A stretch of DNA of 46,437 nt from a virus: IMG/VR virus record IMGVR_UViG_3300022890_000037, positions 1-46,437 of that record; one strand, given 5' to 3'. This document shows, one piece after another, positions 1 through 46,437 of this stretch. Position 1 is the first letter of the stretch. Every line of letters starts with the position of its first letter. Under the pieces are notes generated by a model. It ran no database searches. It had not been told where the DNA came from and saw only the letters and a list, made by a program, of their open reading frames with translations. Position numbers and translations under genes: made by a program.

Positions 1-517
1 TAGCTTCCTGTTTTGGCTTTGCTTCAGGGGTTGCCTCTGGGGTTGCTTCGGTTGCGTTCTTCTGAAGGTCTGCGACCCTACTAAGAATTGCATTACCAAG
101 GCGTTCTGCACGCGCTACTTTTTCCGGAGTGGTTTCAACAGTTATATTTTCTGTCACTGTTTCACTGGCATCAAGAGATTTTGGTCCCTGGTCGTCTGTA
201 GGTTCTTCACCGTCACCATCATTATTGGTGGCTTCAGGAGAGTCTGCTTCAACGCCTGCGATACCGGCTTCCATATCTTGCTGCTTCTCTTTGCCCGCTG
301 CGCCTTGTCCCGCTGGGGTGTCGGCTACGTTTTCGCTAGTCTTGCCTTCTGGCTCAGTCTTGGCGTTATCGTTGGGTCCTGGAGTCGGAGCTTCGGCTGT
401 TTTTTCAACAACTGCTTCTGCTGCTGCGTCAGCTGCTGTTTTAGCCATGGACTTTTCTTCTTCTACTGAATGTAGAAAGTCGCCCATCATTGTTACTACA
501 TCACCATAATTCTTCAT
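1..517 (-). CDS. Acidic Ala/Glu/Pro-rich protein, possible head scaffold (3' end beyond window)
   Basis: The reading frame opens at ATG 517, five bases after an AGGAA ribosome site, and is still open at base 1, so 172 codons are visible. The protein starts MKNYGDVVTMMGDFLHSVEE and soon becomes low-complexity: Ala, Glu, Pro, Thr and Asp dominate, with TPEATPEA-type runs near the window edge. No enzyme motif is visible. It contains three hydrophobic-x-K-x-A sites (MAKTA, VEKTA, LQKNA), the motif proposed here to be the maturation-protease signal. It lies directly downstream of the protease gene. In T4-like gene order that is the place of the scaffold, followed by the major capsid protein. Scaffold is therefore an inference from position and composition, not from homology; a tail or decoration protein is possible. 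Confidence 0.7.
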   Translation of the reverse strand, partial: MKNYGDVVTMMGDFLHSVEEEKSMAKTAADAAAEAVVEKTAEAPTPGPNDNAKTEPEGKTSENVADTPAGQGAAGKEKQQDMEAGIAGVEADSPEATNNDGDGEEPTDDQGPKSLDASETVTENITVETTPEKVARAERLGNAILSRVADLQKNATEATPEATPEAKPKQEA

Positions 518-3172: not shown

Positions 3173-3173
3173 A

Positions 3174-4799
3174 TTAAAATCCTAATCTAGCGTTTGTATC
3201 CTTCTTAGGTTTACGTTGACCTAGATATCTTGAAAGACTTTCTGAACCTGAACTACCTTGTCTACTATCACCGGGGCCTGCTTTGTCGGTTGTCTCCTCG
3301 TTATAGCCTTGATCATTAGCAGGCTCTTGAGGGGATCTTCCTTTCTCGGCATTATGTTTATCAAGGAGCTCAGCAAGCTGTGTAACCATAGGCATCTTCT
3401 TCTCTTTAGCCTCGCCGTCCTTGTCTTTACCACCCATGCGTAGAACATCCAAGAGATCTGCAGATGGTCCAGTGTCTCCGCCAACTGTTGCCATGTTCTG
3501 AGCTTCGTCAAGTTCTCTACGAGTCTTCTCACTAGCTGTATAGGATTTCTCCAGGTCAACTAATTGAGAGATTTCAGCTGGGTCCATTAATTGTTTCTGG
3601 GCCAGTTGACGTTTAACCATAGATTTTAAAGCTGGTTGCATTGCTTTATCGCGCATCATAGGTGAGACATTAATAATATTGTTATAGGCTTCTGTTATGT
3701 CTTCTATAGGATAGTTCTTAATAGACTGATCAGATGCAATAGCTACCCAGCCCTGCATATTGTCGATACTATCAATGTTGCCCATAAATGCCGGGTCCAT
3801 TACTTTTAACATTTTAGGATCTGGATTGGCGCTTGTAATGTCAGACCATTTCTGGACTTCGTCGGAGATAGTGTCTAAGCCTTTCTTAACACCGCCTTTT
3901 ACTGCGCCTGCTGCGAAACCTGGGGCAGTTGCTCCCATGAATTTACCGCTCTCTAATATACTTTTTGTATCTAAGGGAGCAGCGTCTTTTTCAAAAAAAA
4001 AATCTCTAGCATCTTCTGCCAGCTTCGTGAGCTCAGCCTTCTCGTCGGCGTACTCGCGGGCATGTCTGATAGCTTGATCAATCTCAGGATAAGGGGAGTT
4101 GAAAGGAAGTACAGCACCATTGGCTGTCTTCTCTAGGGGAAGGTCACGTTGAATCTTAGCACCGATAACCTGGAGCATCTTAGCGCCTTGGTCACCGAAA
4201 CGATTGACTATAACATGAGCAATCTTCTGTAATTCTTTATCTTTAGTATAACGCATATGCTCAGCCGCTTTCATCAGGGAGTCCTGTGTAGATAGGCGTA
4301 ACTGATTAACTGTGCTCTTCTGACGATCAAAGTTATCAAGTACTTCCATGCGTTTATTCATATCTCTACGATATTCGACATCACTAGCTGTTTTAAGCAT
4401 AGCATCTCTGTCGATGGGTTCTTCTACAGGTTTCTCAGCTGCTGCCTTCTCGAAGGACATTTCCAGCTTAAGACCTATTTCAGAGAAATCTTGTTTGGGT
4501 AGTGTAATTGAAGCTGCCTTTTCTGTTCCACCAAAGATAGCCTTAACGACTTCTTTAGGGTCTGCGTGCTCGAATGATTCCGCCCGGTCACTCGACTTAC
4601 GACTAGATAGTACGTGTACAGTTTTGGATTTATTAAAGGCTTCACATGCACGCTTAGTGATTTCCGGCGTGAATTCCAACTCAGTTGCCATCTTTATAAG
4701 CGCATCATTGGGTGAACTACCAGACCTCGTTGAAGCTACTGCTTTCTCGATGCCTCGCATGATTCGACGCTCTTGACTGGCGGATAGTTTGTCGATCAT
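3174..4799 (-). CDS. Unknown head-region protein rich in K-x-A sites (candidate internal/scaffold protein)
   Basis: This 541-residue protein is not recognised. The first 300 residues are charged and probably helical. They hold ten K-x-A sites, nine with a hydrophobic residue two before the Lys: LIKMA, ITKRA, FEKAA, MLKTA, LMKAA, LQKIA, LEKTA, LTKLA, FEKDA. A Gly/Ala stretch (GKFMGATAPGFAAGAVKGG) lies in the middle. The tail is polar and disordered-looking and ends KPKKDTNARLGF. The stop lies two bases before the protease start (TAG at 3174, protease ATG at 3172), and the start overlaps the upstream gene by four bases (ATGA), so the genes are translationally coupled. The dense repeated sites, as in head scaffolds that are cut into peptides, suggest a protease substrate (inference). 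Confidence 0.8.
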   Translation of the reverse strand: MIDKLSASQERRIMRGIEKAVASTRSGSSPNDALIKMATELEFTPEITKRACEAFNKSKTVHVLSSRKSSDRAESFEHADPKEVVKAIFGGTEKAASITLPKQDFSEIGLKLEMSFEKAAAEKPVEEPIDRDAMLKTASDVEYRRDMNKRMEVLDNFDRQKSTVNQLRLSTQDSLMKAAEHMRYTKDKELQKIAHVIVNRFGDQGAKMLQVIGAKIQRDLPLEKTANGAVLPFNSPYPEIDQAIRHAREYADEKAELTKLAEDARDFFFEKDAAPLDTKSILESGKFMGATAPGFAAGAVKGGVKKGLDTISDEVQKWSDITSANPDPKMLKVMDPAFMGNIDSIDNMQGWVAIASDQSIKNYPIEDITEAYNNIINVSPMMRDKAMQPALKSMVKRQLAQKQLMDPAEISQLVDLEKSYTASEKTRRELDEAQNMATVGGDTGPSADLLDVLRMGGKDKDGEAKEKKMPMVTQLAELLDKHNAEKGRSPQEPANDQGYNEETTDKAGPGDSRQGSSGSESLSRYLGQRKPKKDTNARLGF

Positions 4800-5656
4800 T
4801 TGTCTAAATCTCCATCTTCATATTTATGTATGTTCGCGTCTAACTTCTCTATCTTCTTTACTACTGCTTCTGCATCTTTCAGTTTGATTCTACCATGAAA
4901 TGTAGCTAAACTATCAGGTATTAACCCGTCGTCATCTTGAGCAGCGAGCTCATCAAGCTTGTATGTTCTATCTTCCCAAACACTCAATGTGCGTTGCTGC
5001 GTAGGTATAGTAAGCTCTTTTGGTAATTTACCACTAGTGTGCACGTATTTCAAAGTTTCCCTCGCGTTCTGGCTTACCACATGGTCTATAATCCAGTCGG
5101 CAGTCTTGCCTTTATATGTATGGCCTCTTATGCAATCCATAAGTAGACGCTCTGGTCCTCCGGACCACCCCACAACTTTCCAGATCAAATCTGAGTTCAG
5201 ATAGTCATCCTTCTTATGTGTGGCTGCCGGTGCGAATATGTACTTCTCTACCCAAAAGGGTGAATCTAATTTAGTTCTCACATCATAAAACAAAAGCTCA
5301 TAAGTTCTGATCATGAAAGGTGTCAGTTTCTTATGAATATTTGATTGTATGAACTGTGGCTTTGCTTTCGCCACTAGAGCTGCTTCAAGTGCATGCTTCG
5401 TACAACCCGGAGAATTCTCCTGATGTAGGTCGTATAAGAATGCCATTGCGGGCATAAGCTCTCTTGCTGGGGCACCTTGGAATCGGTCGTCTTCCCATAC
5501 CTCTAAGAATCGCTTAGCCAGTTTAACTGTTGCATCAGCGTAGGCGACGAAGTCTTTATTACTTTCCTTCTCGTTCTTCCGCTCATACAGTGCTCGCTTC
5601 CAACGCCAATCAGGCGCATTATCGAGAACGCAACTCTGATCTGATTGTTTACTCAT
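4796..5656 (-). CDS. Unknown head-region protein, 286 aa
   Basis: No family is recognised. The protein is soluble-looking and rich in aromatic and charged residues, beginning MSKQSDQSCVLDNAPDWRWK. It has no membrane segment and no cysteine cluster. It contains K-x-A triplets but none with a hydrophobic residue at the -2 position, unlike both neighbours. It overlaps the genes on each side by four bases, so it belongs to the same translationally coupled set as the 688-aa and 541-aa genes. Its place between the RNA polymerase genes and the protease suggests a virion or assembly role, but nothing in the sequence fixes that. Confidence 0.75.
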   Translation of the reverse strand: MSKQSDQSCVLDNAPDWRWKRALYERKNEKESNKDFVAYADATVKLAKRFLEVWEDDRFQGAPARELMPAMAFLYDLHQENSPGCTKHALEAALVAKAKPQFIQSNIHKKLTPFMIRTYELLFYDVRTKLDSPFWVEKYIFAPAATHKKDDYLNSDLIWKVVGWSGGPERLLMDCIRGHTYKGKTADWIIDHVVSQNARETLKYVHTSGKLPKELTIPTQQRTLSVWEDRTYKLDELAAQDDDGLIPDSLATFHGRIKLKDAEAVVKKIEKLDANIHKYEDGDLDK

Positions 5657-7719
5657 GCACCTAGATCTTCTGAAAGATCTCCTGCTAAGGCTTCGGTGGA
5701 TGTATCAGGTGCCACAGTCTTTTTACTGAGGAACAATACCAAGTCACTTAAGGACTGGAATACATCACGAAGGCTTTCTTCTAACTCAGTCAGCTCATCA
5801 GTACCATAACGGTCCTGGAAGTCATCATTGTGCCAGTAGAACAGGAACAACAGTCTACCTACGCGGTCGAGACCACGAAGTAGGTCAGGGAGGTAATCCT
5901 CAACCATGTCGATTGCTTTACTGTTCATTGCCAATGTACGGAGTACGGATACGTCCATAACTTCTTTGACACCGTTCTCGGATGCCTTAACTGCTGTGTC
6001 TATATCATCAAGCCCATCTTGAGGGGCTGTTACTTCTTCTACATCATTAGGTGCAGCTGCTGCTCCTATAGAGTTCTCAGCTGTATTGATGAACGGGTCT
6101 TTGGCCAGTTTAACAAGATACCGCATAGAGTTTGGTCTATGTTGAGAAGCTGCTTCCTTAACCATTTTCTTAGCAGTAGGTGCTGCGATACCGTAATCTC
6201 TAACTAACTTAATCATGGCTGCTGTCTTATTGATAGGGCCGTCAGATACGTCAGCATTACTAAGTGTAATAGATGCTCCATCGCTGTATACTTTAACAGG
6301 AGTGAGCTGTACCTTATTGATCAGGCTGTTAACTAGAGTATTAGGATTACCGAAACCATACTTCTGATTAAGTTTGTAATCTGCTCTGTCAATAACTTTA
6401 GCATTGTTAGGAACATATAATGTATCCGCACCAATGAAGAGTTTACCAGGTTTATCAGTGAACTGCATGCAATCTACTTTACGACCAAGATCCATACAAG
6501 CTGCTGTTCCAAGTCCTAGGCTGATTTTAATCTTATTGCCATAGGCTGTCTTAGGTCCATTGAAGTAAACCTGGTAGCTATTAGCATAAGGGTCTACAAT
6601 CACTGCATCATTGGAGCGTTCTCTGATGATACGTTTGAGATCCCTACCAAGTGATTTAAGAAGAGTTGTATCTTCATCATTGGTGATAGTTAGCTGCTTA
6701 GCTTGGATACATCCTTTGCCTGCGAGATACTTATCTTTATGGTTCAAAGGAACCAATAAGAATTTAGCATCACGTGTATTCAGTACACTGTTGTCCGGTT
6801 TATTTTCCATCTTGTTTGGAAACAAAACATAGAAACGATCAAATGTACCATCAGCCATAAGAACATCATAGAGACCTGTGCACGTAGGAGTGCTTAGTTT
6901 CGTATGATCTACTTCACCTTTAAATACAGTGGATGTTTCCTTACGGTTGTCTACAAAGAAGACCCGGTCACGCATTAACACTTCTTTCTCTGCATCTTCT
7001 AATTCAGATGCGTCTGGGGAATCAGGTGTGATTACTTTAAGTACAGTCTGACCTTGAGAAGATCCGTCGGCGGCAGGTATGTCCAACTCATCTACTCCTA
7101 CTTCGTCAGCTGTCTTAGCTAATCCGCGTAAATCATCCGCAGAATAATACTTGAGAATTGCGTTAGCGAATTCAGGGTGTTTAATCATGGTGGCTGTAAA
7201 CTGGAAAGATGCTTCTTTACCCAGCCTAGGTACCCATTCTTTCAGGTCAAATACGTCTCGGTCGAATTTAACAGGTGTCTGCATGTTCTCCCACGCGTCC
7301 TTCTCTAAGAGTGCTGCACCTTTAAGGAAAGGATCAGTTTCTGTGAGATTGACTGAACCAGGTTTACCCTGCATTGTCTTAGCGCTTTCTTCTTCTTCCT
7401 GTTCTCCTGATTCTCCTAATTCCAGCGGTTGCTGTCCTTTGAGATATGAGATCCAAGTTTCTTTGGTTGGAACAAACTGTCCTCTGTTCGGTAAGAACAT
7501 GAGATCGAGTCCTTTGATCCGTCCATTGAGATAAAAGATTGGGATGTAAATCCATTGATCATTCAATTGGAATACTGATACACCGACTCCTCGAGTCTCA
7601 TCATCATCTTTATCGATGAGCTGAAAGCCGACCTTATAAGGGGTTAATGCTGGGGCGTCCTGCGCAATTTGCGAGTCGGCCAGCTGCCCTAGTTGAACTT
7701 CGAAATTTGAACCTGCCAT
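5653..7719 (-). CDS. Unknown probable virion protein, 688 aa
   Basis: This protein is not recognised. The N-terminal third (to about residue 110) looks like a beta-rich domain (VGVSVFQLNDQWIYIPIFYL), followed by an acidic linker. The middle is again beta-rich, and the C-terminus (about 600-688) is acidic and helical with a hydrophobic LDRVGRLLFLFYW stretch. Seven hydrophobic-x-K-x-A sites are visible (FLKGA, LEKDA, LGKEA, LAKTA, INKTA, MVKEA, LVKLA), matching the density in the protease extein. The start is set by AAGGAAATTACC before ATG 7719. It precedes the unknown 286-aa gene with a four-base overlap. A structural role is inferred from position and from the shared motif. Confidence 0.8.
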   Translation of the reverse strand: MAGSNFEVQLGQLADSQIAQDAPALTPYKVGFQLIDKDDDETRGVGVSVFQLNDQWIYIPIFYLNGRIKGLDLMFLPNRGQFVPTKETWISYLKGQQPLELGESGEQEEEESAKTMQGKPGSVNLTETDPFLKGAALLEKDAWENMQTPVKFDRDVFDLKEWVPRLGKEASFQFTATMIKHPEFANAILKYYSADDLRGLAKTADEVGVDELDIPAADGSSQGQTVLKVITPDSPDASELEDAEKEVLMRDRVFFVDNRKETSTVFKGEVDHTKLSTPTCTGLYDVLMADGTFDRFYVLFPNKMENKPDNSVLNTRDAKFLLVPLNHKDKYLAGKGCIQAKQLTITNDEDTTLLKSLGRDLKRIIRERSNDAVIVDPYANSYQVYFNGPKTAYGNKIKISLGLGTAACMDLGRKVDCMQFTDKPGKLFIGADTLYVPNNAKVIDRADYKLNQKYGFGNPNTLVNSLINKVQLTPVKVYSDGASITLSNADVSDGPINKTAAMIKLVRDYGIAAPTAKKMVKEAASQHRPNSMRYLVKLAKDPFINTAENSIGAAAAPNDVEEVTAPQDGLDDIDTAVKASENGVKEVMDVSVLRTLAMNSKAIDMVEDYLPDLLRGLDRVGRLLFLFYWHNDDFQDRYGTDELTELEESLRDVFQSLSDLVLFLSKKTVAPDTSTEALAGDLSEDLGA

Positions 7720-7818
7720 GGTAATTTCCTTGTGTTAATGTTGTACTTACTTTACTTATATCTAGGCATCAATGTTGTTTATAGGCCTAGTTTATTCATG
7801 TACCATCTCAAGACTTTA

Positions 7819-8091
7819 TTAGGAGCCATGTTTTTTAGAACATCCTTTTCCTGTTGCTCTTACGGGTTTAAAACTTCCCTTAAGTGTTTCCAAATCAACA
7901 GGGCCCAGCTTCTTAGCTATGGGCTTATCCGCCTCGAAATGTGCACTCTGTGACGGGGTCATAGCTTTACCCAGGGCTGGTTTTGCTTTAACGCCTCCTT
8001 TAGTATAAGCCTGGTAAAGGCCTGTTAAAGGATCTACTGCTTCCTTCGCCAAGTAGCCTGCTAGGTATCCGTGTCTTTTACTGTCTGTCAT
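7819..8091 (-). CDS. Small protein with N-terminal GYLxGYLAKEA tag
   Basis: The start is placed at ATG 8091, because GGAG lies six bases upstream; an in-frame ATG at 8103 lies inside the preceding RNA polymerase gene and has no ribosome site. The 90-residue product begins MTDSKRHGYLAGYLAKEAV, the clearest example of the tag shared by many genes here. The next residues (DPLTGLYQAYTKGG) also match the protein at 20832-21167 (NPLAALYIAYTSGE), so the two are probably related beyond the tag. The rest is Lys/Gly-rich and basic. No function is recognised. It follows the beta' C-terminal gene directly. I infer a virion protein, possibly packaged inside the head. Confidence 0.75.
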   Translation of the reverse strand: MTDSKRHGYLAGYLAKEAVDPLTGLYQAYTKGGVKAKPALGKAMTPSQSAHFEADKPIAKKLGPVDLETLKGSFKPVRATGKGCSKKHGS

Positions 8092-8092
8092 T

Positions 8093-11071
8093 TTAATCTC
8101 CAATATTTGTTATTGCTGGGTAGTATGATGTACTCTTACGTTCGCTAGTGCCCCCGCGTGCAGCGGCCCCTAATGTTGAACGTTTGAGATTTTCTCCGCC
8201 TAAGCGAGTCATCCAATCCTTATCATGTTGTGTAAAATCCTGAGCACGAACGACAAACGGTTCAAAGGGAGGTGGTTTAGGATGCGTTGCAACCAGTCCT
8301 ACTCCGTTACTCCTCAGTTCCTTAGATACCTTCGGCGTAATTCGTGTCCCTATACTATAATGTAAATAGGGTTTCTCTAGATATAAATTACTTGCACTTG
8401 TGACTGATTTCAACTTAGAACCCTCTCTAGGTTGCCATCTGGATGCTAAATAATCATAATCCACAACGTCACCTACCATATGGCCATTGTAACCCTCGGG
8501 ATCATTTATCTTAATTTTGGATATGAAACTACGGGCAAAGAGTTCCAGATTGCGCCTGTTAGTACCTGCTCCATTCTTCTTTAATATTTTATGATACTGT
8601 TCCATGAAGTAACGTCTGCCACTGCCTATACCTTTATACTTTACAATCTCTGAAGGGTTGGGTACTCCGTTGCTAAGGACATCACCTGCTTCTACATTAT
8701 CGCCTATCTTTACTGCTGTGTGGAGTTCTCGTGGAATATGATACTGCTTACCGCTGACCATGATGTATTTACCACCCTGAGGGGCGTCTTGTATCTTTGC
8801 CACCTTACCATCAGCTTCTGATAATATTGCACCACCTACAAACTCTTTAGGGACTTGTACAAATTGATTTACTTCTTTGAAACCTGTTAGACCTACTTCC
8901 TCTTCGTCTTTACCGCCTACTCCGCCTATGTGCTTCGAACCAAGACCGGATTGTGTTAGTGCCTCTACAAAGGAACGTACAGCATTGATGCCCACAGCCT
9001 CGCCTATATCAGGTAAGGTACCTTTCTCTCTTACACCTGTGCACTGTTGGCATACGCCTTCTGGTGCTTCACATGTTAAAGGGCTACGTACTGTTACTTT
9101 CTTGTCGGTCATAAGGGGTAAGTGTTCTGCTTGTATAATTGTACCGGCTTTAAGGGTACCGACAGGCTGCAGTAGTATACTGCCTACATTGTCAGAGTCG
9201 TCACCTTCTACTTTAAGGCCTTGTGTAACTCCGCAGTCGGGCATAGTTACTATATTACGATGGGCTACGTTTGTTAATTGTTTGCTTAAATAGCCTGACT
9301 CAGCTGTACTGAATTGTGTATCGGAGTTAGATACTACCATTCCATTAGCTAGTACAAATAGATGATCAGGGTGGTTCACTGATAAATCATACGTATTTAT
9401 TTTATAGGAGTCTGATTTACCTGTATACCCGAAAACAAGACTATCGTCCCTGTTATTAGGGGTATGCTTACTAAGTAGTTCTCTAAATTCATCTGATTTT
9501 CTTCCATACGCCAGTAGTTTATTAAATTTATAAATAGAAGACTCATTAGTTACTCTAAGGGTGTACATATCAAGTCTGTGTATTATCTCTTTTCCACTCT
9601 TATTAAAGGATCTGGTCTTTGAAAGTTTAACAGGGCTTACAGTTGTTGTGTAGATGCCAAACCTGGTTTGTAACAGTTCTTTTAGTTGGTTCAATAATAT
9701 TTCTGAAGACATCGACCAGCCTACACCTGGTAAGTTAGATGTATTACTACCTTTGCGGCACCAACCGTCCGACTCATATAACCCATGTATCAAATTAGCT
9801 ATATCAGCATTTGACCATCTCTTACTCTCCTCTGGTATAAACTTAGTATGGGAATGTGTGCCCAGTAATCCAAAGGTATCAAGCCATCTTTTTATAGGGT
9901 TTCTGTGTTTTGCTTGGTCTCTAATCCCTTTTCCAATTACTACGTACTCTAAGGAGGGCTCTCCGGACGTTCTATTCCTCTTTATATGTTTAAGCTGAAC
10001 ATTGTTTAGATCCTTGTTAAGCTTCTCTATTAGATCAACATCTATTGAAGATAACGTAACACTATATTTCTCGCTTAAATGTCCATCGCCTAATAATAAG
10101 CCCAATAAACGAGCATACGGCTGTGAGGTTTCTGCCTTACATTGATAGGTGCCGGCCGGTGTCATGCCAAAACAACGCCATGCCTGGCTGAGAGGTAGCT
10201 TAGAAGGGATTCTTAGATGAGGTGTTGCCTGTCCATTCTTAATGACAGAGAGGACTTTATGGTTTTCTGTAGCTGTTAGTGTTACAAGATTATCCATCCT
10301 TCCTACCCTGAACGTGTAATCATTAACTTTTCGTTCCCCATTATCAAAAGTGTCGATAACCTCTACCGGAAAAGTATTTCCTTCAGTATCGGCTCCTATT
10401 ACCCTCTCACCTTTGGTTATGTCTTTTATAGCTTTAACGGAGAAATCAGCCATTCTAACCAATGTGCTTCCTGCGAGGCACATGCCCTTTCTGGAGGATT
10501 GAGCACCAAGCCAATAAGGTAAAGGAGATACACCACTACCATAGGAGTCCAGTCCTGGGAATGGTATTGTCTTGCCTGTAGAATCTGCCATAAGCATATC
10601 ACCGAAGACAGTCTGCATAAGCTGTGTCTTATTCCCTCTGGAGCCACTTTCTATTTGTCTGGCCATAGAGTTGTTACGGGCCAAGAGATCCCTATATACT
10701 GTTTCGGATAAGTTCTTGGAGGCTTTATTGGTTACCTTCGTAATCTCATCAAGCTTCTGCTCAGATGTAAGGCCTGTGCTATTTGTTATAAGGTGTATTC
10801 TTTGCTTGAGTTCTTGCTTCTTATTCCTGATGGAGGCAGGGACTGTTAAATCTTTGAGACTAATACTAGCTTCACGGCCATATGTAGTTGCTACATTACG
10901 ACCTATGTTATTAAGTTTTTGGAGGGTGTCGTTATACTTACCTGGATCTTTCTTAGCAAGATCAGTCATAAGATCACCGATCCGCTTACCATCTATAGCC
11001 TCTTCGGCATAAGAACGATAAGCAGCAGGTAAAGCATCTTTAACTAGTTCTTTGCCTACTGTCGTGATCAT
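8093..11071 (-). CDS. RNA polymerase beta' C-terminal part (RpoC2-like), intein-containing
   Basis: The 992-residue precursor has an intein at residues 198-582, so the spliced product is about 607 residues. It starts MITTVGKELV, matching the TTVGR segment of bacterial beta'. SGSRGNKTQ (142-150) corresponds to the SGARGSAAQ region. The bridge-helix stretch SSRKGM | SDTQFSTAESGYL is split by the intein. The second beta' zinc site is complete: Cys613, Cys667, Cys674 and Cys677, with the last three spaced as in bacteria. The trigger loop GEAVGINAVRSFVEALTQ...KHIGG (about 690-716) keeps the catalytic His but has Gly where E. coli has Arg933. With the beta-beta' fusion at 12681-19418 it makes one catalytic core. 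No alpha, omega or sigma gene is in the window. Confidence 0.95.
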   Translation of the reverse strand: MITTVGKELVKDALPAAYRSYAEEAIDGKRIGDLMTDLAKKDPGKYNDTLQKLNNIGRNVATTYGREASISLKDLTVPASIRNKKQELKQRIHLITNSTGLTSEQKLDEITKVTNKASKNLSETVYRDLLARNNSMARQIESGSRGNKTQLMQTVFGDMLMADSTGKTIPFPGLDSYGSGVSPLPYWLGAQSSRKGMCLAGSTLVRMADFSVKAIKDITKGERVIGADTEGNTFPVEVIDTFDNGERKVNDYTFRVGRMDNLVTLTATENHKVLSVIKNGQATPHLRIPSKLPLSQAWRCFGMTPAGTYQCKAETSQPYARLLGLLLGDGHLSEKYSVTLSSIDVDLIEKLNKDLNNVQLKHIKRNRTSGEPSLEYVVIGKGIRDQAKHRNPIKRWLDTFGLLGTHSHTKFIPEESKRWSNADIANLIHGLYESDGWCRKGSNTSNLPGVGWSMSSEILLNQLKELLQTRFGIYTTTVSPVKLSKTRSFNKSGKEIIHRLDMYTLRVTNESSIYKFNKLLAYGRKSDEFRELLSKHTPNNRDDSLVFGYTGKSDSYKINTYDLSVNHPDHLFVLANGMVVSNSDTQFSTAESGYLSKQLTNVAHRNIVTMPDCGVTQGLKVEGDDSDNVGSILLQPVGTLKAGTIIQAEHLPLMTDKKVTVRSPLTCEAPEGVCQQCTGVREKGTLPDIGEAVGINAVRSFVEALTQSGLGSKHIGGVGGKDEEEVGLTGFKEVNQFVQVPKEFVGGAILSEADGKVAKIQDAPQGGKYIMVSGKQYHIPRELHTAVKIGDNVEAGDVLSNGVPNPSEIVKYKGIGSGRRYFMEQYHKILKKNGAGTNRRNLELFARSFISKIKINDPEGYNGHMVGDVVDYDYLASRWQPREGSKLKSVTSASNLYLEKPYLHYSIGTRITPKVSKELRSNGVGLVATHPKPPPFEPFVVRAQDFTQHDKDWMTRLGGENLKRSTLGAAARGGTSERKSTSYYPAITNIGD
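9326..10480 (-). mobile_element. Intein with LAGLIDADG endonuclease in the beta' bridge helix
   Basis: This 385-residue insertion starts at Cys198 (CLAGSTLVRMADFSVKAI) and ends LFVLANGMVVSN at Asn582, with Ser583 as the +1 residue. The block B motif is TENH. The endonuclease motifs are ARLLGLLLGDGHL and NLIHGLYESDGWC, both with acidic residues. Block F is TYDLSVNHPDHLFVLANG. The penultimate residue is Ser instead of the usual His, a variant tolerated in some inteins. It lies between RKGM and SDTQ, a universally conserved part of the polymerase active centre. Confidence 0.93.
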
Positions 11072-12631: not shown

Positions 12632-12647
12632 GTCTAACGCGTTAGAC
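12632..12647. repeat. 16-bp perfect palindrome, copy 1 of 3
   Basis: GTCTAACGCGTTAGAC lies in the 75-bp gap between the stop of the beta-beta' gene and the start of the Pro/Met repeat gene, about 27 bases before that start codon. Read in the direction of transcription it is preceded by AAAA and followed by A. Identical copies are at 30286 and 39459. Confidence 0.9.
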
Positions 12648-28964: not shown

Positions 28965-29606
28965 ATGATAGGAATAGTAAGTCCACACATGTACCAAGAA
29001 AAATATTGGTTTGGGTTAGACGGTAAAAATGAATTCACTACAGTTAAAAGGAGGAGTGATATGATACACTTTGAAGATTCAGGAGGAAAGAAACACGCGC
29101 TTAGACCGGAGGATGTCTCTTCGATTGAGCAGAAAGAAAAGGATGGAAACTTCTTTCTATCCAGTAACATTGAAGGCACAGCAGATATAGAAATCAACGA
29201 AATCACCTATAATGAGCTTATTAGTTATTTAAGCCAGGACTACGATGGTTATTGGGAACAGAAGATGGAGACGTTTAGTGGCCTACTTAAGGAAGAGGAA
29301 GCGGGAAAGGACACACAAGAAGAGTACGATCTTAGTGGTGACTATAAGTACTCTCAACAGCCTTATGAGATTGGCTCGTCTGGTACAGGTGATAGTACTT
29401 GGAGCACTACTATTACGTCTAATAGTGTCACAGATAATTATCTGAGTGACGCGTCTGCTACAACTGCAACTACGGATACAGGTACCACCTATAAACATAC
29501 CATGACGCCTCAGGAGATAAGAAATGCTTACTCCAATTATGCAACGACAATATCTACTGCACGGAAGCAGGGGCTCGCACGGAAACTTCAAGGAGCTATT
29601 ACATAA
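28965..29606 (+). CDS. First gene of rightward operon, unknown, 213 aa
   Basis: ATG 28965 is chosen because AGGAGG lies eight bases upstream; an in-frame GTG at 28947 would lie in the promoter. The protein begins MIGIVSPHMYQEKYWFGLDG. Its first 100 residues look like a small beta-rich fold that binds or measures something (SSIEQKEKDGNFFLSSNIEG). The last 100 are Ser/Thr/Asp-rich and probably disordered. It shares with the next gene the theme of a short beta domain plus an acidic Ser-rich tail. The stop overlaps the next ATG (TAATG). No family is recognised. Confidence 0.78.
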   Translation: MIGIVSPHMYQEKYWFGLDGKNEFTTVKRRSDMIHFEDSGGKKHALRPEDVSSIEQKEKDGNFFLSSNIEGTADIEINEITYNELISYLSQDYDGYWEQKMETFSGLLKEEEAGKDTQEEYDLSGDYKYSQQPYEIGSSGTGDSTWSTTITSNSVTDNYLSDASATTATTDTGTTYKHTMTPQEIRNAYSNYATTISTARKQGLARKLQGAIT

Positions 29607-30001
29607 TGTTTATAAAATCAACAAACACCGATGGCTTTGGTGTAATCATCAACACAGATGAAATTACTGTTATTGAGAAGGATGCTGTAGAGGTTACGGT
29701 AAACTTCCGTTCAGGTAGGATAGATGTTCCGACCACAGAATTTGCCTTATTTGAGTCTATTCTGTGTGCTGAGTATAATCGTGAAGTTAAAAGTCGTATG
29801 GATGACCTCGTTGATAAACTGGATGATGATGCTGCTAAAGGATCGGCCGCTGGACCATACCGGTCTAATGAGGATATACAGGCCCTTATAGCTTCATTCA
29901 TGCAGAAGTATATTGGCCCAGGGCACGAAGAGAGTGAGGAGTCTTGGAGCAATGATAGTTCATCAACAACAGACGATGAAGAACAAGCTTATTTAACATA
30001 G
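29606..30001 (+). CDS. Unknown small acidic protein, 131 aa
   Basis: The protein begins MFIKSTNTDGFGVIINTDEI, a beta-rich stretch up to about residue 50. Then comes a helix (ESILCAEYNREVKSRMDDLV) and an acidic Ser/Glu-rich tail (EESEESWSNDSSSTTDDEE). The beta part (TVIEKDAVEVTVNFRSGRID) looks like the short phage domains that resemble YolD/DUF-type barrels, but I cannot assign it. It is coupled to the upstream gene by a TAATG overlap. Confidence 0.75.
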   Translation: MFIKSTNTDGFGVIINTDEITVIEKDAVEVTVNFRSGRIDVPTTEFALFESILCAEYNREVKSRMDDLVDKLDDDAAKGSAAGPYRSNEDIQALIASFMQKYIGPGHEESEESWSNDSSSTTDDEEQAYLT

Positions 30002-30010
30002 GAGGTAACC

Positions 30011-30361
30011 ATGTTAAAATTTGGATTTGATGAAGAGGACCCAATTCCGGAGGATGCACCAGTATCCTTTAGGGTCTATCGCAAGAAACCTGTAACTATC
30101 TTTGCATCACCTATCCACGAGGCCTTTGAGGTTATGACGCCTAATGGTGCTGTGCATGCTGAAGCAGGTGAGTATTTAGTAATGGGAGTCGAAGGAGAAC
30201 TATATCCTATTAAAGAGTCGATCTTTAAGAAGACCTATGAGTATGCGGATGAAGAGGAGATATCCCTGCACTTCGACGGGGAAAAGTCTAACGCGTTAGA
30301 CAAAGAGCCTATCCATCTACGTGAAGAGGTCAAGAGGCTTGAACGGGAGGTCTACAAATGA
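30011..30361 (+). CDS. Small protein with phage-type AxAGEYLVxGVEGELYPIK motif, 116 aa
   Basis: Residues 20-75 (FRVYRKKPVTIFA, then AEAGEYLVMGVEGELYPIKE and FKKTYEYA) resemble a widespread small phage domain of unknown function that begins YRKKPV and has PGDY[IL]...GVxGExYPIxxxIFxxTYE. AGGAGG precedes the start. The C-terminus is charged and helical. The coding sequence contains an exact copy of the 16-bp palindrome at 30286-30301, encoding SNAL. The function is unknown. Confidence 0.8.
   Translation: MLKFGFDEEDPIPEDAPVSFRVYRKKPVTIFASPIHEAFEVMTPNGAVHAEAGEYLVMGVEGELYPIKESIFKKTYEYADEEEISLHFDGEKSNALDKEPIHLREEVKRLEREVYK
30286..30301. repeat. 16-bp perfect palindrome, copy 2 of 3
   Basis: GTCTAACGCGTTAGAC lies inside a coding region on the plus strand. 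As in the other two copies it is preceded by AAAA and followed by A in the direction of transcription. Confidence 0.9.
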
Positions 30362-34239: not shown

Positions 34240-35433
34240 CTATTTAATTAATCCTAGTTTACCTGACAGCTGTTTAATATGCGCTATCTTCTCTGTAGAG
34301 GACTCAGGCTGTATCTGCTTAGCTGATGCTGGAGCTGATCCTTGTGCTTTAACCTTACCGAACTTAACACCAAGCTCTTTAATAGCGGTCAGTTTATCCT
34401 TCTGGCTACCTGCGAACGTTGGCCCTGCGGATGGAGGTGTATTGTCTTCTGCTACTTTCTCGTTCTTTTCACCATCCTCTTCGTCCTCGTCTTCCTTACG
34501 GTCCTCAGTCTCGTCCGATATGGCGGAGACTCCTTTGGCGTCTGAGTTATCAGGGGAGTTCTTAGCAATCTGTGTAGGAACTTCTTCAGTTTCTTGGTTA
34601 TCATCATCGTCTGGTCCTTTTCGTTCTGCTACAGGGACTGCTTCTGCTTGTTTAGTAATAAATGCAAACATATCAGCTATTGTAGCCGTCATCATTGGTT
34701 TGTTGTCTGAAGCCATTTTAACGTACTCCTTCTTAGGTTCTTCTTCAGGTTTAGCTTGGTTCTCTTCAGTGACAACTTCGTCATCATCCTGTTCGAGTTC
34801 CCCATCTTCGATCTCTACTTCTTTCTCTTGGGCGTTCTGTGCTGCTTCTGCTGCTGCGGCTGGGTCATCACCTAACTCGTTGCTCATTGCAGAATAGACT
34901 GCTTCTTCACCTTCGTGTGGATCTACGCCTAAAGCCATATAAAGCTTATGCAGTGTAGCATCATCAAGGTCCTGCTGTGTCTGTAGGAAACGGAATATGA
35001 TCTCTTTATCCTCAGGGGATGGATCACCTAGTCCTTTTTCCTTTTCCATTTTGAGTTGTTCTTCCATACCACCCAGTTCATCATAGTAATCAGGTGTGGT
35101 CTCTTCAACATGGTCTGTAGCTATTTCGCCGGCCATATTAGCATCATCGGTGTGTTCCATCTCAATAGCCTGCCCTTGATCAATGGCTCCCTCTACTTCA
35201 TCTACCTCTAAACCCTGCTCATCGGCTATCTCTTCCGGTTCTTTACCGTCAGCAGCGCCGCCTTTAATCTTTTCCTCGTCTATGACGCCAACTTCTTCCA
35301 TGCCTAATCCCATCATCTGAGGACAGATAGCTGCCTTCTGTAAGATGTTCTGCATACGCGGGGAGATCTCAACAGGGGGTAGCTCACTTGCTATCTTCTG
35401 GAATGATCCTAAAATACCTTCTAATCTATTCAT
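34240..35433 (-). CDS. Highly acidic protein with KxA sites, 397 aa
   Basis: The protein begins MNRLEGILGSFQKIASELPP, with the FQKIA tag signal at residues 11-15 and LQKAA, YVKMA and ITKQA further on. Most of the protein is Glu/Asp-rich and low-complexity (ATDHVEETTPDYYDELGGME, EDRKEDEDEEDGEKNEKVAE). The C-terminal 60 residues are Lys-rich and helical. The composition resembles head scaffolds or internal core proteins of large phages. No family is recognised. There is no membrane segment. Confidence 0.78.
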   Translation of the reverse strand: MNRLEGILGSFQKIASELPPVEISPRMQNILQKAAICPQMMGLGMEEVGVIDEEKIKGGAADGKEPEEIADEQGLEVDEVEGAIDQGQAIEMEHTDDANMAGEIATDHVEETTPDYYDELGGMEEQLKMEKEKGLGDPSPEDKEIIFRFLQTQQDLDDATLHKLYMALGVDPHEGEEAVYSAMSNELGDDPAAAAEAAQNAQEKEVEIEDGELEQDDDEVVTEENQAKPEEEPKKEYVKMASDNKPMMTATIADMFAFITKQAEAVPVAERKGPDDDDNQETEEVPTQIAKNSPDNSDAKGVSAISDETEDRKEDEDEEDGEKNEKVAEDNTPPSAGPTFAGSQKDKLTAIKELGVKFGKVKAQGSAPASAKQIQPESSTEKIAHIKQLSGKLGLIK

Positions 35434-35449
35434 TTTAAACTCCTATTGT

Positions 35450-37189
35450 TTATGGCCTGAACTGCGGATATGTTTTAAGTATGTTAGCCCGCTCGTTCGG
35501 TGTACCTTTATAGTACATTTGCCTTAATAATGTCTTCTTGCTTTTTGTCTTGGGTGGGTTCTTCTTGTAACCCTCGAATTCGTCTGATAGCTTAGCTCCT
35601 AATCCTAGAATAGAGTGCAGATCTAAATCACTAGCACCCATAATATCCTTTATATCCTTCGGATTAATACCTGTTCCCTGTAACTGTGTTCCTAGAATTT
35701 CCTTAATCTTCTCAGGATTATTCCTATTAGCTGTAACCATGTGCAGCATTTGATTAATCTCATCCCTAGTAAACTGCTTAGTAGAACCTGGCATAAGCTT
35801 CTGTATGGCTAGTGGTAATGCCTCTGTAGCTACATCAAGTAACTCATGCTCTCCATTATAGCGTCTTGGTTTACCGGCCTCTCTGTCTTTTATTTCCTTC
35901 ATAGTTATATTAGGCAGCTGCTTACCTTTACGCTTCAGGGACTTCATATATAATATAGCAGCTATACCCTGTAGTGCGCCACCCCCTGTTAACCAAGCTG
36001 CACGATTATCTTTTCCTGAGAAGCCTTTAACAAGTGCTCCTGTGCCTAATGCACTAGCTGCTATGCCACCAACTTCATAAGGGTGTTTCTTAACATAGTT
36101 ACCAGCAATACGACCACCAGCCTTCAATCCTTTCCAGGCTGTTCCTGCGTGTCCTTTAAGTGCCTCAGGTGTTAATTGCTTCTGGATCTTACCGGAATCC
36201 CATACATCTAAGAGCTTATCACCGTAGCCGCCTAGATCCTCTGTGAGACCTGCTTTTTTATTTAATGCTTCTAATCTTTGTGCCAGATATTTCACTGCAT
36301 AAGGCAGAGATGCTCCAGCAAGTCCACCGCCTATACTCCAAAGGAAGTTATTCTTCTCAGGTATAGCTAATCCGGCTGCACTGCCCAGTAGACCTGATAT
36401 AATTGAAGCACGCCTTGGATTCATCTTAGCCATCCTGTTAATCATTGTCTGGTCTTGGGTTCTCTCACCTTTAAGTTCATCTGCTGTGCGTTTCTGATTA
36501 AGGTAGTCTTCCTGTTGTTTAAACCCACGAGCCTCAGCCGCCTCAGGTGCTTCATTGCGAAATGGGGCTTGCTCTGGGTCTCTTTCATCAGTGAATACCT
36601 TTCCAGCACGCCATGTGGCTGCAGCTGGTAATGCCGCTAAACCTAGTGTTGGTGTTAGTCTCCTGCCAAGCCTGTCGGCTTTTTCTATTTTTTGGAACAG
36701 ATTAGTACCATTAGCCCCCGCAAAAGGTAATCTGGCTATGTTACCTCTTGCCTTCATGCCAAGAGCCCCTCCTACATTACGTGCAGGTCCTTTGAAGGCC
36801 TTGTGGGCTAACAAGAACATCATTGCTGTGTACATTGCTGGTTCTGGTTTTACACGAAAGCGTATTGGGCCGTTCTGGAATAAGACATCACCGCCCTCTG
36901 CTTTAGTTATGCCGCCTCCTTTCCACTTCATATTAGGTACTAAGGAGCCAAGGCGTTCATTAAGCTTAAGTTTACCGATAGTAGGGTTATAGATCTTCTC
37001 AAGGAATCCTATACCCTTCTTACCCTGCTCCTGCGATATTACCTTGGGTAACATTTTAAAAGGCAGGTCAGCAGCCTTAGCGCCGTACTTTAAGCCTTTG
37101 GCCCATTTACCTGCACTCTTAATCTTGGCAGCTGTTTCTTCTGGTGTCAGTTCTGCTTGTTTATGTAAATGTTCTGATAAACTCCCCAT
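35450..37189 (-). CDS. Large tagged multi-pass membrane protein, 579 aa
   Basis: The protein begins MGSLSEHLHKQAELTPEETA with the tag signal LHKQA at residues 8-12. Several hydrophobic small-residue segments are visible: TAMMFLLAHKAF near 125, LTPTLGLAALPAAATW near 180, SIISGLLGSAAGLAIP near 260, FLWSIGGGLAGASLPYAVKY near 280, VGGIAASALGTGALV near 375 and LTGGGALQGIAAILYM near 395. The rest is basic and polar. It overlaps the upstream gene by one base. No enzyme motif is visible. It is the largest of the tagged membrane proteins and a good candidate for a DNA-ejection pilot protein (inference). Confidence 0.8.
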   Translation of the reverse strand: MGSLSEHLHKQAELTPEETAAKIKSAGKWAKGLKYGAKAADLPFKMLPKVISQEQGKKGIGFLEKIYNPTIGKLKLNERLGSLVPNMKWKGGGITKAEGGDVLFQNGPIRFRVKPEPAMYTAMMFLLAHKAFKGPARNVGGALGMKARGNIARLPFAGANGTNLFQKIEKADRLGRRLTPTLGLAALPAAATWRAGKVFTDERDPEQAPFRNEAPEAAEARGFKQQEDYLNQKRTADELKGERTQDQTMINRMAKMNPRRASIISGLLGSAAGLAIPEKNNFLWSIGGGLAGASLPYAVKYLAQRLEALNKKAGLTEDLGGYGDKLLDVWDSGKIQKQLTPEALKGHAGTAWKGLKAGGRIAGNYVKKHPYEVGGIAASALGTGALVKGFSGKDNRAAWLTGGGALQGIAAILYMKSLKRKGKQLPNITMKEIKDREAGKPRRYNGEHELLDVATEALPLAIQKLMPGSTKQFTRDEINQMLHMVTANRNNPEKIKEILGTQLQGTGINPKDIKDIMGASDLDLHSILGLGAKLSDEFEGYKKNPPKTKSKKTLLRQMYYKGTPNERANILKTYPQFRP

Positions 37190-39458: not shown

Positions 39459-39474
39459 GTCTAACGCGTTAGAC
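39459..39474. repeat. 16-bp perfect palindrome, copy 3 of 3
   Basis: GTCTAACGCGTTAGAC contains the stop codon of the 121-aa gene (SLTR-stop) and lies 15 bases before the next start codon. In the direction of transcription it is again preceded by AAAA and followed by A. Confidence 0.9.
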
Positions 39475-39832: not shown

Positions 39833-40147
39833 CTACTTACTATATTGAGGGTTCTTCTTAATGAATTCCCAGTCCTTCTGGAATCCTGGCACTAACTTAG
39901 GCGGGTTCTCTGCCTTTACTGATGCCTTGGCTGCTGCCTGGTCAATCTTAGGTTCCGGTGGGTTAGCTGCCTTTACTGATGCCTTGGCTGCTGCCTGGTC
40001 AATCTTAGGTTCCGGTACTGCCGGGTTAGGTGGTGCTGTGTGGGCTGTTTGTATAGTGTCATCATTATTAGGCTTTGTTCTATATTCACCGCCTGCTTCC
40101 TTCTCAAGATATCCAATCATATATCCGTTTAAATAGCTGTTGTTCAT
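39833..40147 (-). CDS. Tagged small protein with duplicated Lys/Ala repeat, 104 aa
   Basis: The N-terminus MNNSYLNGYMIGYLEKEAGG is a clear GYxxGYLxKEA tag, almost the same as the next gene upstream. Two near-identical 19-residue repeats follow (EPKIDQAAAKASVKAxNPP). The tail is VPGFQKDWEFIKKNPQYSK. There is no membrane segment. The product is basic and Ala/Pro-rich, of the kind found in internal head proteins, but no family is recognised. Confidence 0.77.
   Translation of the reverse strand: MNNSYLNGYMIGYLEKEAGGEYRTKPNNDDTIQTAHTAPPNPAVPEPKIDQAAAKASVKAANPPEPKIDQAAAKASVKAENPPKLVPGFQKDWEFIKKNPQYSK
39911..40021 (-). repeat. 57-bp direct duplication inside the 104-aa gene
   Basis: The stretch reading gcctttactgatgccttggc on the plus strand occurs twice, 57 bases apart, with almost no differences. 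It encodes the two EPKIDQAAAKASVKA units. Confidence 0.85.
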
Positions 40148-44982: not shown

Positions 44983-45016
44983 TGCTAAAAATATAGCTAG
45001 TAGAACTTTCGTTCTA
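44983..45016 (-). terminator. Candidate terminator with GAAA tetraloop after the HTH gene
   Basis: On the minus strand TAGAAC-GAAA-GTTCTA (45001-45016) forms a six-pair stem with a GNRA loop and is followed by CTAGCTATATTTTTAG. It lies about 25 bases after the stop of the ParB-like HTH gene, at the left end of the Cys-rich gene chain. Confidence 0.4.
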
Positions 45017-45040
45017 GTATATAATGCCATAATTATGCGT

Positions 45041-45349
45041 TCATTTAACCTGCTTTTTGAGTAGCTCCTGAACCGCAATATTTGCAGTTATATCCCCAGA
45101 GCTCATACTTCTGATAAGACCCTTCCTACCACTCTTGAGTACTCTCACTATGCGTTCCCCAGATGAGGCACTGATTCCGAGCTCTTCAGCTATGTCCTCA
45201 GCTGCTTTACCTTTAAATGCCCCTCTAGGGCTGGGTGCATGGTTGCCCTGCCTTTCCTTGGCATCCCTTGATGCCTTTCGTAGCAGGCTACCGATCTTGC
45301 GGATCGTCTCGGTCCGTCTTATTGTAACTCCTGACAATGTTTTCGTCAT
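45041..45349 (-). CDS. ParB/KorB-like HTH DNA-binding protein, 102 aa
   Basis: The N-terminus is basic (MTKTLSGVTIRRTETIRKIG). Residues about 48-95 (AAEDIAEELGISASSGERIV, then RVLKSGRKGLIRSMSSGDIT) match the helix-turn-helix part of ParB-type proteins, where an AExLGxSxxTVxRxxxVLKxG segment is followed by LxxAVxSGExs. No ParB nuclease/CTPase domain is present, so this is a stand-alone HTH. It may regulate transcription or bind phage DNA sites. It is the last gene of the overlapping Cys-rich chain, and its ATG lies within the end of the upstream gene. Confidence 0.65.
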   Translation of the reverse strand: MTKTLSGVTIRRTETIRKIGSLLRKASRDAKERQGNHAPSPRGAFKGKAAEDIAEELGISASSGERIVRVLKSGRKGLIRSMSSGDITANIAVQELLKKQVK

Positions 45350-45626
45350 CTGTTAGCTCCTTTAGTTTAAGTAGGTCTACGTATAAACCGTCACACTTGT
45401 CTTCTATGATCTCTTTTATTAATTGCTCCTTGTTCTTAGCTTTCACTAAGGCATCAGCGGACCATGCGGGGTAGTCTGTAAAACATATAACCGATGTGCA
45501 AGTAGGTGTTATGCCTCCATTATATATGGGACACCCACTACCACAGCCCTTACAGCCCCCATCAGCAAGACAGTGGTATACTGTATCCCTAATCATCTTA
45601 GGTGTTAGTTGTATTTGTTTCTTCAT
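45288..45626 (-). CDS. Cys-rich mini-protein of tandem chain, 112 aa
   Basis: The protein begins MKKQIQLTPKMIRDTVYHCL. Eight cysteines are present, clustered in CLADGGCKGCGSGCP and CTSVIC, so it probably binds zinc or another metal. The segment DGLYVDLLKLKELTDDEN matches the DPLYxDLLxVKEL motif of its upstream neighbours. Its coding DNA contains AAGGAG, followed by the ATG of the HTH gene, with a 62-base overlap. No family is recognised. Confidence 0.75.
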   Translation of the reverse strand: MKKQIQLTPKMIRDTVYHCLADGGCKGCGSGCPIYNGGITPTCTSVICFTDYPAWSADALVKAKNKEQLIKEIIEDKCDGLYVDLLKLKELTDDENIVRSYNKTDRDDPQDR

Positions 45627-45918
45627 CGCTCAGCTCCTTAACGTGTAGTAGGTCCTGGTATAGAGGATCTATAAGCTGTAGGTGTGTATGACTACCGTAT
45701 CCGCATACTCTATGGTTGTTCTTAAACCGAGGGCATGCGACATTCCCCGCGGATAGAGGAGGCTTGCTTAATGCACAGGTATGGCAAATGTGCTCCTTAG
45801 CTTTAATTGATACCTTTTTAAACATATATGACCGCCCTCCTTGTGCTCTTATAAGGTATACCTTATTAGGCTTAACAACCTCAGCAGAGTATTCAATTAG
45901 TCTTATTGTCTCCTCCAT
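45598..45918 (-). CDS. Cys-rich mini-protein of tandem chain, 106 aa
   Basis: The protein begins MEETIRLIEYSAEVVKPNKV. A cysteine set (CHTCALSK...CPRF...CGY) suggests metal binding. It ends DPLYQDLLHVKELSDEETNTTNT. The AAGGAG inside the VKEL codons and the ATG inside SDE form the start signals of the 112-aa gene, which overlaps by 29 bases. No family is recognised. Confidence 0.75.
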   Translation of the reverse strand: MEETIRLIEYSAEVVKPNKVYLIRAQGGRSYMFKKVSIKAKEHICHTCALSKPPLSAGNVACPRFKNNHRVCGYGSHTHLQLIDPLYQDLLHVKELSDEETNTTNT

Positions 45919-46087
45919 CGCATATCTCCTTTAATGTTAATAAGTCTCTGTATAGTGGGTCACTGACATAGCGTGGTATGTACGTTTTGCACTTCAAGGG
46001 GCTGTTACCCTTCGTAAAGTCCCATTCACCATCACAAGTACGCATCAGCTTACGGCACCTCTTACAAGTTGATTTAAGACTGCTCAT
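45893..46087 (-). CDS. Cys-rich mini-protein of tandem chain, 64 aa
   Basis: The protein begins MSSLKSTCKRCRKLMRTCDG and has CKRC plus two further Cys. It ends DPLYRDLLTLKEICDGGDNK. The AAAGGAG in the LKE codons and the ATG in CDG start the 106-aa gene, overlapping by 26 bases. It is the shortest complete member of the chain. No family is recognised. Confidence 0.73.
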   Translation of the reverse strand: MSSLKSTCKRCRKLMRTCDGEWDFTKGNSPLKCKTYIPRYVSDPLYRDLLTLKEICDGGDNKTN

Positions 46088-46379
46088 CGCTTAGCTCCTT
46101 TACTTTAAGTAGATCTGCATATAATGGATCCGAGTACTGCTCTATTGCGTTCCGGAGTATTTCATCCTTATGCTTTATTATAAAGCTTACCCAAGAGCCC
46201 TCAGGCAGTTTGTGTTCATCAACCCTTATGCATTTACACCAGTTGACACACCTATCACCAGGTTCGAACAGAGGGCATTCGCTACACTCTTCACCGGGTT
46301 CTTTGCTGCGAAGTACGCATCTCTCTAAACCTTCTTTAAGGTCTTGTGGGTTTATATATTTACTCTTCAATGGTTCCAT
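46074..46379 (-). CDS. Cys-rich mini-protein of tandem chain, 101 aa
   Basis: The protein begins MEPLKSKYINPQDLKEGLER. Six or more Cys occur in CVLRSKEPGEECSECP and CVNWCKC. It ends DPLYADLLKVKELSDEQS, the best example of the shared ending. The AAGGAG and ATG in the last codons start the 64-aa gene, overlapping by 14 bases. No family is recognised. Confidence 0.75.
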   Translation of the reverse strand: MEPLKSKYINPQDLKEGLERCVLRSKEPGEECSECPLFEPGDRCVNWCKCIRVDEHKLPEGSWVSFIIKHKDEILRNAIEQYSDPLYADLLKVKELSDEQS

Positions 46380-46437
46380 TGCTTATCTCCTTTACTTTAA
46401 GCAGGTCCATGTATACTGGATCCAGGAAAGTCTTCAT
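46360..46437 (-). CDS. C-terminal end of another member of the mini-gene chain (cut by window edge)
   Basis: The visible 25 residues are MKTFLDPVYMDLLKVKEISN and five more, the same DPxYxDLLxVKE ending as the next four genes. AAGGAG in the VKE codons precedes the ATG of the 101-aa gene. The Met at the window edge may be internal, because in all other members the motif is C-terminal. Confidence 0.6.
   Translation of the reverse strand: MKTFLDPVYMDLLKVKEISNGTIEE

Follow-up and report, generated by a model that had tools for sequence, protein, structure and literature searches.

The window, by which we mean the whole stretch of 46,437 nucleotides analyzed here, covers positions 1 to 46,437 of IMG/VR record IMGVR_UViG_3300022890_000037. 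Its last 1.4 kb carries, on the minus strand, the downstream end of a chain in which small genes overlap one another (Table 1). Five of these genes share a peptide, hereafter the tail, of the form D-[PG]-[LV]-Y-x-D-L-L-x-[VL]-K-E-[LI], with each copy in frame with its own gene. The pattern matched five times in the window and had no match in 100 of 100 dinucleotide shuffles. In all five tails, the K-E codons read AAGGAG and are followed, after a spacer of 7 nt, by the ATG of the next gene, so the junctions are as a preliminary description of this DNA had reported them, read on the minus strand. That description had also stated that five genes end in DPxYxDLLxVKE(L/I). All five in-frame tails are present, but the last copy reads DGLYVDLLKLKEL and not DPxY, and the tail lies near the C terminus without forming its extreme end. 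Another 6 to 22 residues follow it in the window (5 to 34 in the whole array and 4 to 34 when a second phage is included), and these are encoded inside the next gene. Neighboring genes consequently overlap, by 14 to 62 nt in the window and by 11 to 62 nt across the array. The protein that closes the chain has no tail, no Cys-rich body, and no Pfam match.

Table 1. Features of the chain at the end of the window, in the order in which they are read on the minus strand
Feature	Position in window (strand)	Product or sequence	Remarks
Tailed Cys-rich gene, 3' end	46360..46437 (-)	113 aa (full gene)	Cut by window end; full gene at L010:8088-8429
Tail	46387..46422 (-)	DPVYMDLLKVKE	AAGGAG is the last 6 nt (46392-46387)
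Tailed Cys-rich gene	46074..46379 (-)	101 aa (...SDPLYADLLKVKELSDEQS)	
Tail	46095..46130 (-)		Embedded AAGGAG; next ATG at 46087
Tailed Cys-rich gene	45893..46087 (-)	64 aa	Shortest member; C-2-C-6-C-14-C
Tail	45926..45961 (-)	DPLYRDLLTLKE	Embedded AAGGAG; next ATG at 45918
Tailed Cys-rich gene	45598..45918 (-)	106 aa	
Tail	45634..45669 (-)	DPLYQDLLHVKE	Embedded AAGGAG; next ATG at 45626
Tailed Cys-rich gene	45288..45626 (-)	112 aa	Second body type (TPxxIR...C...CxxxC)
Last tail	45357..45392 (-)	DGLYVDLLKLKE	Embedded AAGGAG; next ATG at 45349
Chain end	45041..45349 (-)	102 aa, basic protein	Start served by the ribosome-binding site of the last tail
Promoter-like sequence	45012..45028 (-)	GGCATTATATACTAGAA	Just past the chain

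Near-identical contigs in IMG/VR continue the chain beyond the window. Extending it rightward in one of them, a contig of 96,452 bp (L010), raised the count from the five members in the window to 26 intact tailed genes and one decayed member, located at positions 1210-9501 (about 8.3 to 8.5 kb). The tail consensus across this array is D-P-L-Y-x-D-L-L-x-V-K-E-[LI]. Because the IMG/VR scan used a peptide-level pattern, neither the K-E codons nor the following ATG were prescribed. The spacer between AAGGAG and the start codon was nonetheless 7 nt in 24 of the 25 measured junctions (one start is GTG) and 10 nt in the other, which retains the frame relation. These 25 junctions leave out an inserted block and the last tail, which also has an ATG at 7 nt. 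The tail is always read in the frame of the upstream gene, the downstream gene is always in the +1 frame, and all neighbors in the array overlap except at the inserted block. The string AAGGAG-N7-ATG occurs 26 times in the array, compared with 7 times in the rest of the 96,452-bp contig. The array is broken once, at L010:7066-7945, by three or four unrelated genes that include a peptidyl-tRNA hydrolase (PTH2, E = 3.5e-32). Directly after this block lies the decayed member, which has lost its body and the Tyr of the tail while keeping the tail DNA and the geometry of the start. A one-mismatch copy of the promoter-like sequence found just past the chain also occurs before it, at base 116 of the 96,452-bp contig. 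A search of RNA families returned no match.

Peptide and start signal in one coding sequence

Conservation of the tail could reside in the peptide, in the DNA, or in both. Among the tail codons that precede the Shine-Dalgarno sequence, the six most conserved (D, L, Y, D, L, and L) had a pairwise pS of 0.71 and a pN of 0.036; for all ten of these codons, the values were 0.62 and 0.15, respectively. Since the residues are fixed while synonymous sites vary, the peptide is under selection. The conservation of the tail is thus protein-level purifying selection and reflects neither a DNA repeat nor recent homogenization.

The K-E codons behave differently. They were AAG in 26 of 26 tails and GAG in 26 of 26, with no change at all, whereas in the rest of the phage genome Lys is encoded by AAG in 50% of cases and Glu by GAG in 43%. 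With independent codon draws, the chance of such uniformity would be about 1e-8 for AAG and 4e-10 for GAG, but the tail copies are related and hence not independent. An internal control is better for this reason: the Lys two codons upstream is encoded by AAA in 18 tails and AAG in 4, compared with AAG in 26 of 26 for the Lys of the K-E pair. The invariance of codons that each account for about half of usage indicates that the DNA is also under selection. Peptide and ribosome-binding site are therefore both maintained in the tail, and the proposal that the motif is at once a peptide signature and a start signal for the next gene was borne out.

Cassette exchange and occurrence in a second phage

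A further property of the tail emerged from a comparison of strains. Contig L009 is nearly identical to L010 and has one extra 257-bp unit between two tails. In L010, L011, and the window, a single tail stands in this place, composed of the left L009 tail up to GATCCAGTATAC and the right L009 tail from ATGGACC on. The two alignments overlap by 46 bp, and the crossover falls within about 5 bp inside the tail. The difference may be read as a deletion or as an insertion of the cassette. The extra gene in L009 is shifted in frame by one base within an A run, a change that is either real or a sequencing error. The first tail in Table 1 is the window's copy of the joint that is hybrid relative to L009, and the window contig stops 15 nt away from this polymorphic site, suggesting that a mixed population brought the assembly to its end there. 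Since the strains differ by precisely one 257-bp cassette and the tail at its joint is a hybrid, the tail is also a recombination joint, and the description of the array as modular cassettes holds in this respect. In T4, short-homology recombination leads to segmental amplification and deletion of accessory genes, with incidental microhomologies of 6 to 10 bp as the repeats (PMC9391042). The two systems are alike in having short repeats that flank accessory genes and in the rapid gain and loss of copies. They differ in that here a selected coding repeat of 36 to 46 nt bounds nearly every gene of the array.

Tails were also found outside this group of contigs. IMGVR_UViG_3300022871_000011 (77,273 bp; L016 and L054) contains three Cys-rich genes that carry the tail and share the AAGGAG-N7-ATG arrangement, so that the search for the ending in other phages, which had been suggested beforehand, recovered true members besides those of the near-identical contigs. 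Both tailed phages are known from metagenome contigs only. In the 77,273-bp phage, the second tail provides the start of a 320-aa BNR-repeat protein and the third that of a 114-aa protein without a tail. The tailed genes adjoin a gene that looks terminase-like on inspection; its C-terminal part had no Pfam match. The terminase-like frame of this contig (L054, 15194-18700, minus strand; 1168 aa) is apparently split by a long Hint-like insert, again by inspection.

In scans of IMG/VR with tail patterns and with an alignment of members, all true members came from the near-identical contigs or from IMGVR_UViG_3300022871_000011. The other matches that we read, which were internal matches in ClpP-like proteins and short frames, were due to chance, as was a match in a flagellar operon of an Aquificota genome found in a scan of genome contigs. 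No match was obtained in 50,697 phage records, either by tblastn with the tail or one member as the query or by blastn with the region.

The phage carries an RNA polymerase beta-prime-type subunit (Rpb1 domains 4 and 5) at window positions 8093-11071 (minus strand), interrupted by a Hint/LAGLIDADG intein; intein and LAGLIDADG domains were likewise matched by the frame at 551-3172 (minus strand). The polymerase gene has relatives in Salmonella phage Arash, in Vibrio phages, and in about 30 IMG/VR contigs. We considered whether the array is a trait of polymerase-bearing phages and rejected this idea, as a profile of the members matched only the second tailed phage among 30 records (the 27 IMG/VR records behind the polymerase matches, 2 named phages, and the second tailed phage itself). 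A 20-residue match in G027 (E = 0.005) was judged to be chance, and absence from the polymerase-hit records is not proof because some of them are fragments. Elsewhere in these contigs, we noted a 57-bp unit in two tandem copies (96% match) at window positions 39903-40016, which gives an in-frame 19-residue repeat in the open reading frame at 39833-40147, and a cluster of 12 tRNA genes at positions 60608-65271 of the 96-kb contig.

The two tailed phages have little else in common. With the array set aside, blastp and phmmer between them gave only matches to G4 29273-30163 and 35272-36000 that were short and weak, and a further shared stretch of 25 aa that derives from an identical 176-bp segment (79384-79559 of the 96-kb contig and 69512-69687 of the 77-kb contig). 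In the 77-kb phage, a gene opens with this segment, which supplies its first 25 codons before the sequences diverge completely, and a 27-bp piece from 3 kb away adjoins the segment. The shared segment reflects either recombination or an assembly chimera. A perfect 16-bp palindrome, GTCTAACGCGTTAGAC, is present at window positions 12632-12647, 30286-30301, and 39459-39474, mostly in or at the edge of intergenic gaps. The 96-kb contig has five copies of it, and the 77-kb phage has two exact copies and one near-exact copy; it was absent from 11 other records checked and is possibly a common operator. The promoter-like sequence, which both phages contain, was rejected as a link between them; it is also present in tail-less contigs and is therefore probably an ordinary promoter of the host type. 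The tail tracks neither phage lineage, which leaves it to work either by itself or with something that both phages meet, most simply a host component.

Cysteine-rich bodies and predicted structure

Upstream of the tail, the proteins are rich in cysteine, which makes up 6.6% of body residues compared with 1.1% of residues in the other proteins of the phage. Combining the two phages, 28 of the 29 members contain a CxxC and 28 of the 29 have at least four Cys. The ligand pattern of zinc knuckles and zinc ribbons (CxxC plus two further Cys) is present at the level of sequence. The metal-binding-like character attributed to these bodies at the outset thus stands as a Cys pattern, and metal binding itself is putative.

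Once the tails were removed, blastp sorted the 29 members into groups of eight, six, and two, with the other 13 standing alone. The group of eight has an aromatic-rich start, a CxxC, and a later Cys pair, and the group of six is described by TPxxIR...C...CxxCP. No significant family match was obtained for the 29 members in Pfam, PHROGs, or NCBIfam, nor among PDB sequences; the best family E-values were 0.0063, 0.029, and 0.023 for the three family databases in that order, each from one of the 29 members.

Using AlphaFold with 20 sequences, we modeled a member of the first group at moderate confidence (mean pLDDT = 69.5), with the tail among the less confident parts. In the predicted structure, a beta hairpin is followed by a helix close to the cysteines, by a third strand, and then by a separate helix at residues 84-99. 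The tail corresponds to this separate helix, which begins directly after D83. The model for the second group was too poor to use (mean pLDDT = 54). A fold search with the better model found no match at E ≤ 0.001 and no PDB fold at E ≤ 1. Top viral fold matches in BFVD included small proteins of crAss-like phages (cr52_1, cr8_1, and cr10_1) with probabilities of 0.5 to 0.6 and E-values of 0.1 to 0.4; at 56 to 62 aa, these proteins are much shorter than the tailed query and the matches are not significant, making them a lead only.

Proposed function and competing explanations

We lean toward a reading in which the tailed genes encode swappable Cys-rich accessory proteins with a common docking helix, one coding stretch doubles as ribosome-binding site and recombination joint, and the proteins act as adaptors in host takeover or counterdefense. 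The end of the window would then be the downstream end of a polycistronic accessory-gene array in a tailed phage with genes for a multi-subunit-type RNA polymerase. Each gene would encode a variable, Cys-rich, probably zinc-binding body of the zinc-knuckle type, joined to a shared C-terminal amphipathic helix with an Asp-Pro N-cap. The whole array would be covered by an mRNA that may begin at the promoter-like sequence around base 116 of the 96-kb contig, and ribosomes are predicted from the sequence to start each gene at the site embedded in the preceding tail. The body may determine target specificity, and the helix may dock all members onto one common partner. That partner is probably a host protein, because the two tail-bearing phages share almost nothing else; given the shared 176-bp segment and the 16-bp palindrome, however, the partner or contact could be phage-derived. 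The conserved 36 to 46 nt would serve as a homology patch at which cassettes are lost or gained with the tail and the next start left intact. The most likely purpose would be to supply interchangeable host-takeover or counterdefense adaptors, a suggestion that draws on the "one tag, many variable heads" pattern of T4 internal proteins (PMC9026906, PMC9391042). Within this scheme, sequence evidence supports the array itself, the twofold constraint on the tail, the fixed start geometry, the embedded start sites, the recombination joint, and the presence of the tail in two otherwise unrelated phages, whereas the promoter, zinc binding, docking, the host partner, and the purpose are inferred.

The same T4 proteins inspire a different reading, which we regard as rather unlikely, namely that the tail is a packaging or delivery tag that sends small proteins into the virion for injection at infection. 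In T4, a terminal capsid-targeting sequence of about 10 residues, located at the N terminus and proteolytically removed, directs about three divergent internal proteins into the head; of these, IPI and probably also IPIII act against host defenses (PMC9026906, PMC9391042). In both cases a short terminal tag is shared by divergent, variable small proteins that are gained or lost, with many blastp-unrelated body groups here and a counterdefense role for at least IPI in T4. However, the tag is C-terminal in 29 of 29 members, the T4 tag is not coupled to the start of the next gene, and there are 26 intact tailed genes in the array as opposed to about three internal proteins in T4. The two phages also have no detectable head proteins in common, which makes a single head-core receptor for both unlikely, and our non-exhaustive scans found no prohead protease among the proteins scanned.

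Alternatively, the tail could be mainly an RNA or DNA element, that is, a portable ribosome-binding and recombination site whose peptide is a by-product without protein function. Conserved ribosome-binding repeats before small phage genes are known: the start-associated sequences (SAS) of Cluster K mycobacteriophages contain AGGAG and lie 3 to 7 bp before the starts of nonstructural genes, with 11 to 19 copies per genome (PMC3203893). The tails resemble SAS in being repeated directly before the starts of small nonstructural genes (26 tails, with 7 nt in 24 of 25 junctions), and the fixed AAGGAG and spacing, together with a decayed member that retains tail DNA and start geometry without body or Tyr, would fit such an element. 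SAS is conserved 13-bp DNA, however, with the consensus GGGATAGGAGCCC, and sometimes overlaps the upstream stop codon (PMC3203893). The tails depart from that consensus, having AAGGAG, a 7-nt spacer, and a start codon without the GGG...CCC ends. They are also coding and always in the frame of the upstream gene, with a selected peptide and shuffled synonymous codons (the pS and pN values given above), which is not expected of a DNA element; SAS is not described as a conserved peptide. We therefore consider this explanation unlikely.

Another reading, in our view quite improbable, is that the genes are unrelated and form an operon under translational coupling, with the tail keeping their expression stoichiometric through termination-reinitiation or mRNA melting. 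Apart from the inserted block, neighbors overlap by 11 to 62 nt and keep a constant +1 frame relation, which would fit such coupling. In 22 of 26 tails, moreover, a stop codon in the frame of the next gene lies two codons before its start, although these stops may be a by-product of the codons used for Leu/Ile-Ser/Thr. The preliminary description had called the motif a coupling device, which in the strict sense goes beyond the observations: start regions already have a low predicted opening energy (mean, 6.4 kcal/mol, compared with 12.1 kcal/mol for gene interiors as the control), and the upstream stop lies at a variable distance, 11 to 62 nt past the next start. With starts this accessible and stops this variable, autonomous initiation at the embedded site, with no contribution from ribosomes translating the upstream gene, is no less likely than strict coupling. 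Coupling would also leave unexplained why the peptide is conserved and why the tail precedes unrelated downstream genes in the second phage.

A last alternative, which we regard as highly improbable, is that tandem duplication occurred recently and that gene conversion homogenized the tails, so that their conservation is mechanical and not selected. In its favor, several tails are only 1 or 2 nt apart and cassettes do recombine at tails. Against it, synonymous sites should match in homogenized tails and instead vary, a tail resembles its neighbors no more closely than randomly paired tails resemble each other (P = 0.36), and an unrelated phage shares the conserved tails. The array is thus unlike the product of recent tandem duplication, and with most bodies unrelated by blastp, the suggestion that cassettes can be duplicated in tandem is not supported for its recent history.

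The docking-helix reading has a more far-reaching version, which we offer tentatively. The tail would define a self-propagating cassette format in which a docking peptide is also the next ribosome-binding site and the exchange joint, able to move between unrelated phages and to deliver a library of effectors onto one host partner. To our knowledge, such a self-propagating gene-cassette format is unlike known ones. The parts are known separately, as ribosome-binding repeats in SAS and as terminal tags and short-repeat recombination in T4, and a limited literature search did not find them combined in one coding sequence elsewhere.

If correct, a single stretch of 36 to 46 nt would act as docking helix, ribosome-binding site, and recombination joint. 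Phages would thereby possess a plug-in format in which small effectors could be added, lost, or swapped without damage to the operon, and the origin of variable phage accessory-gene regions would become testable at the nucleotide level. The shared tail also offers a handle, as a peptide pull-down could reveal the partner of some 29 unknown proteins together. Finally, the arrangement provides a search rule for other phage genomes, where a C-terminal peptide that doubles as the start signal of the next gene may lead to arrays built on other tails.
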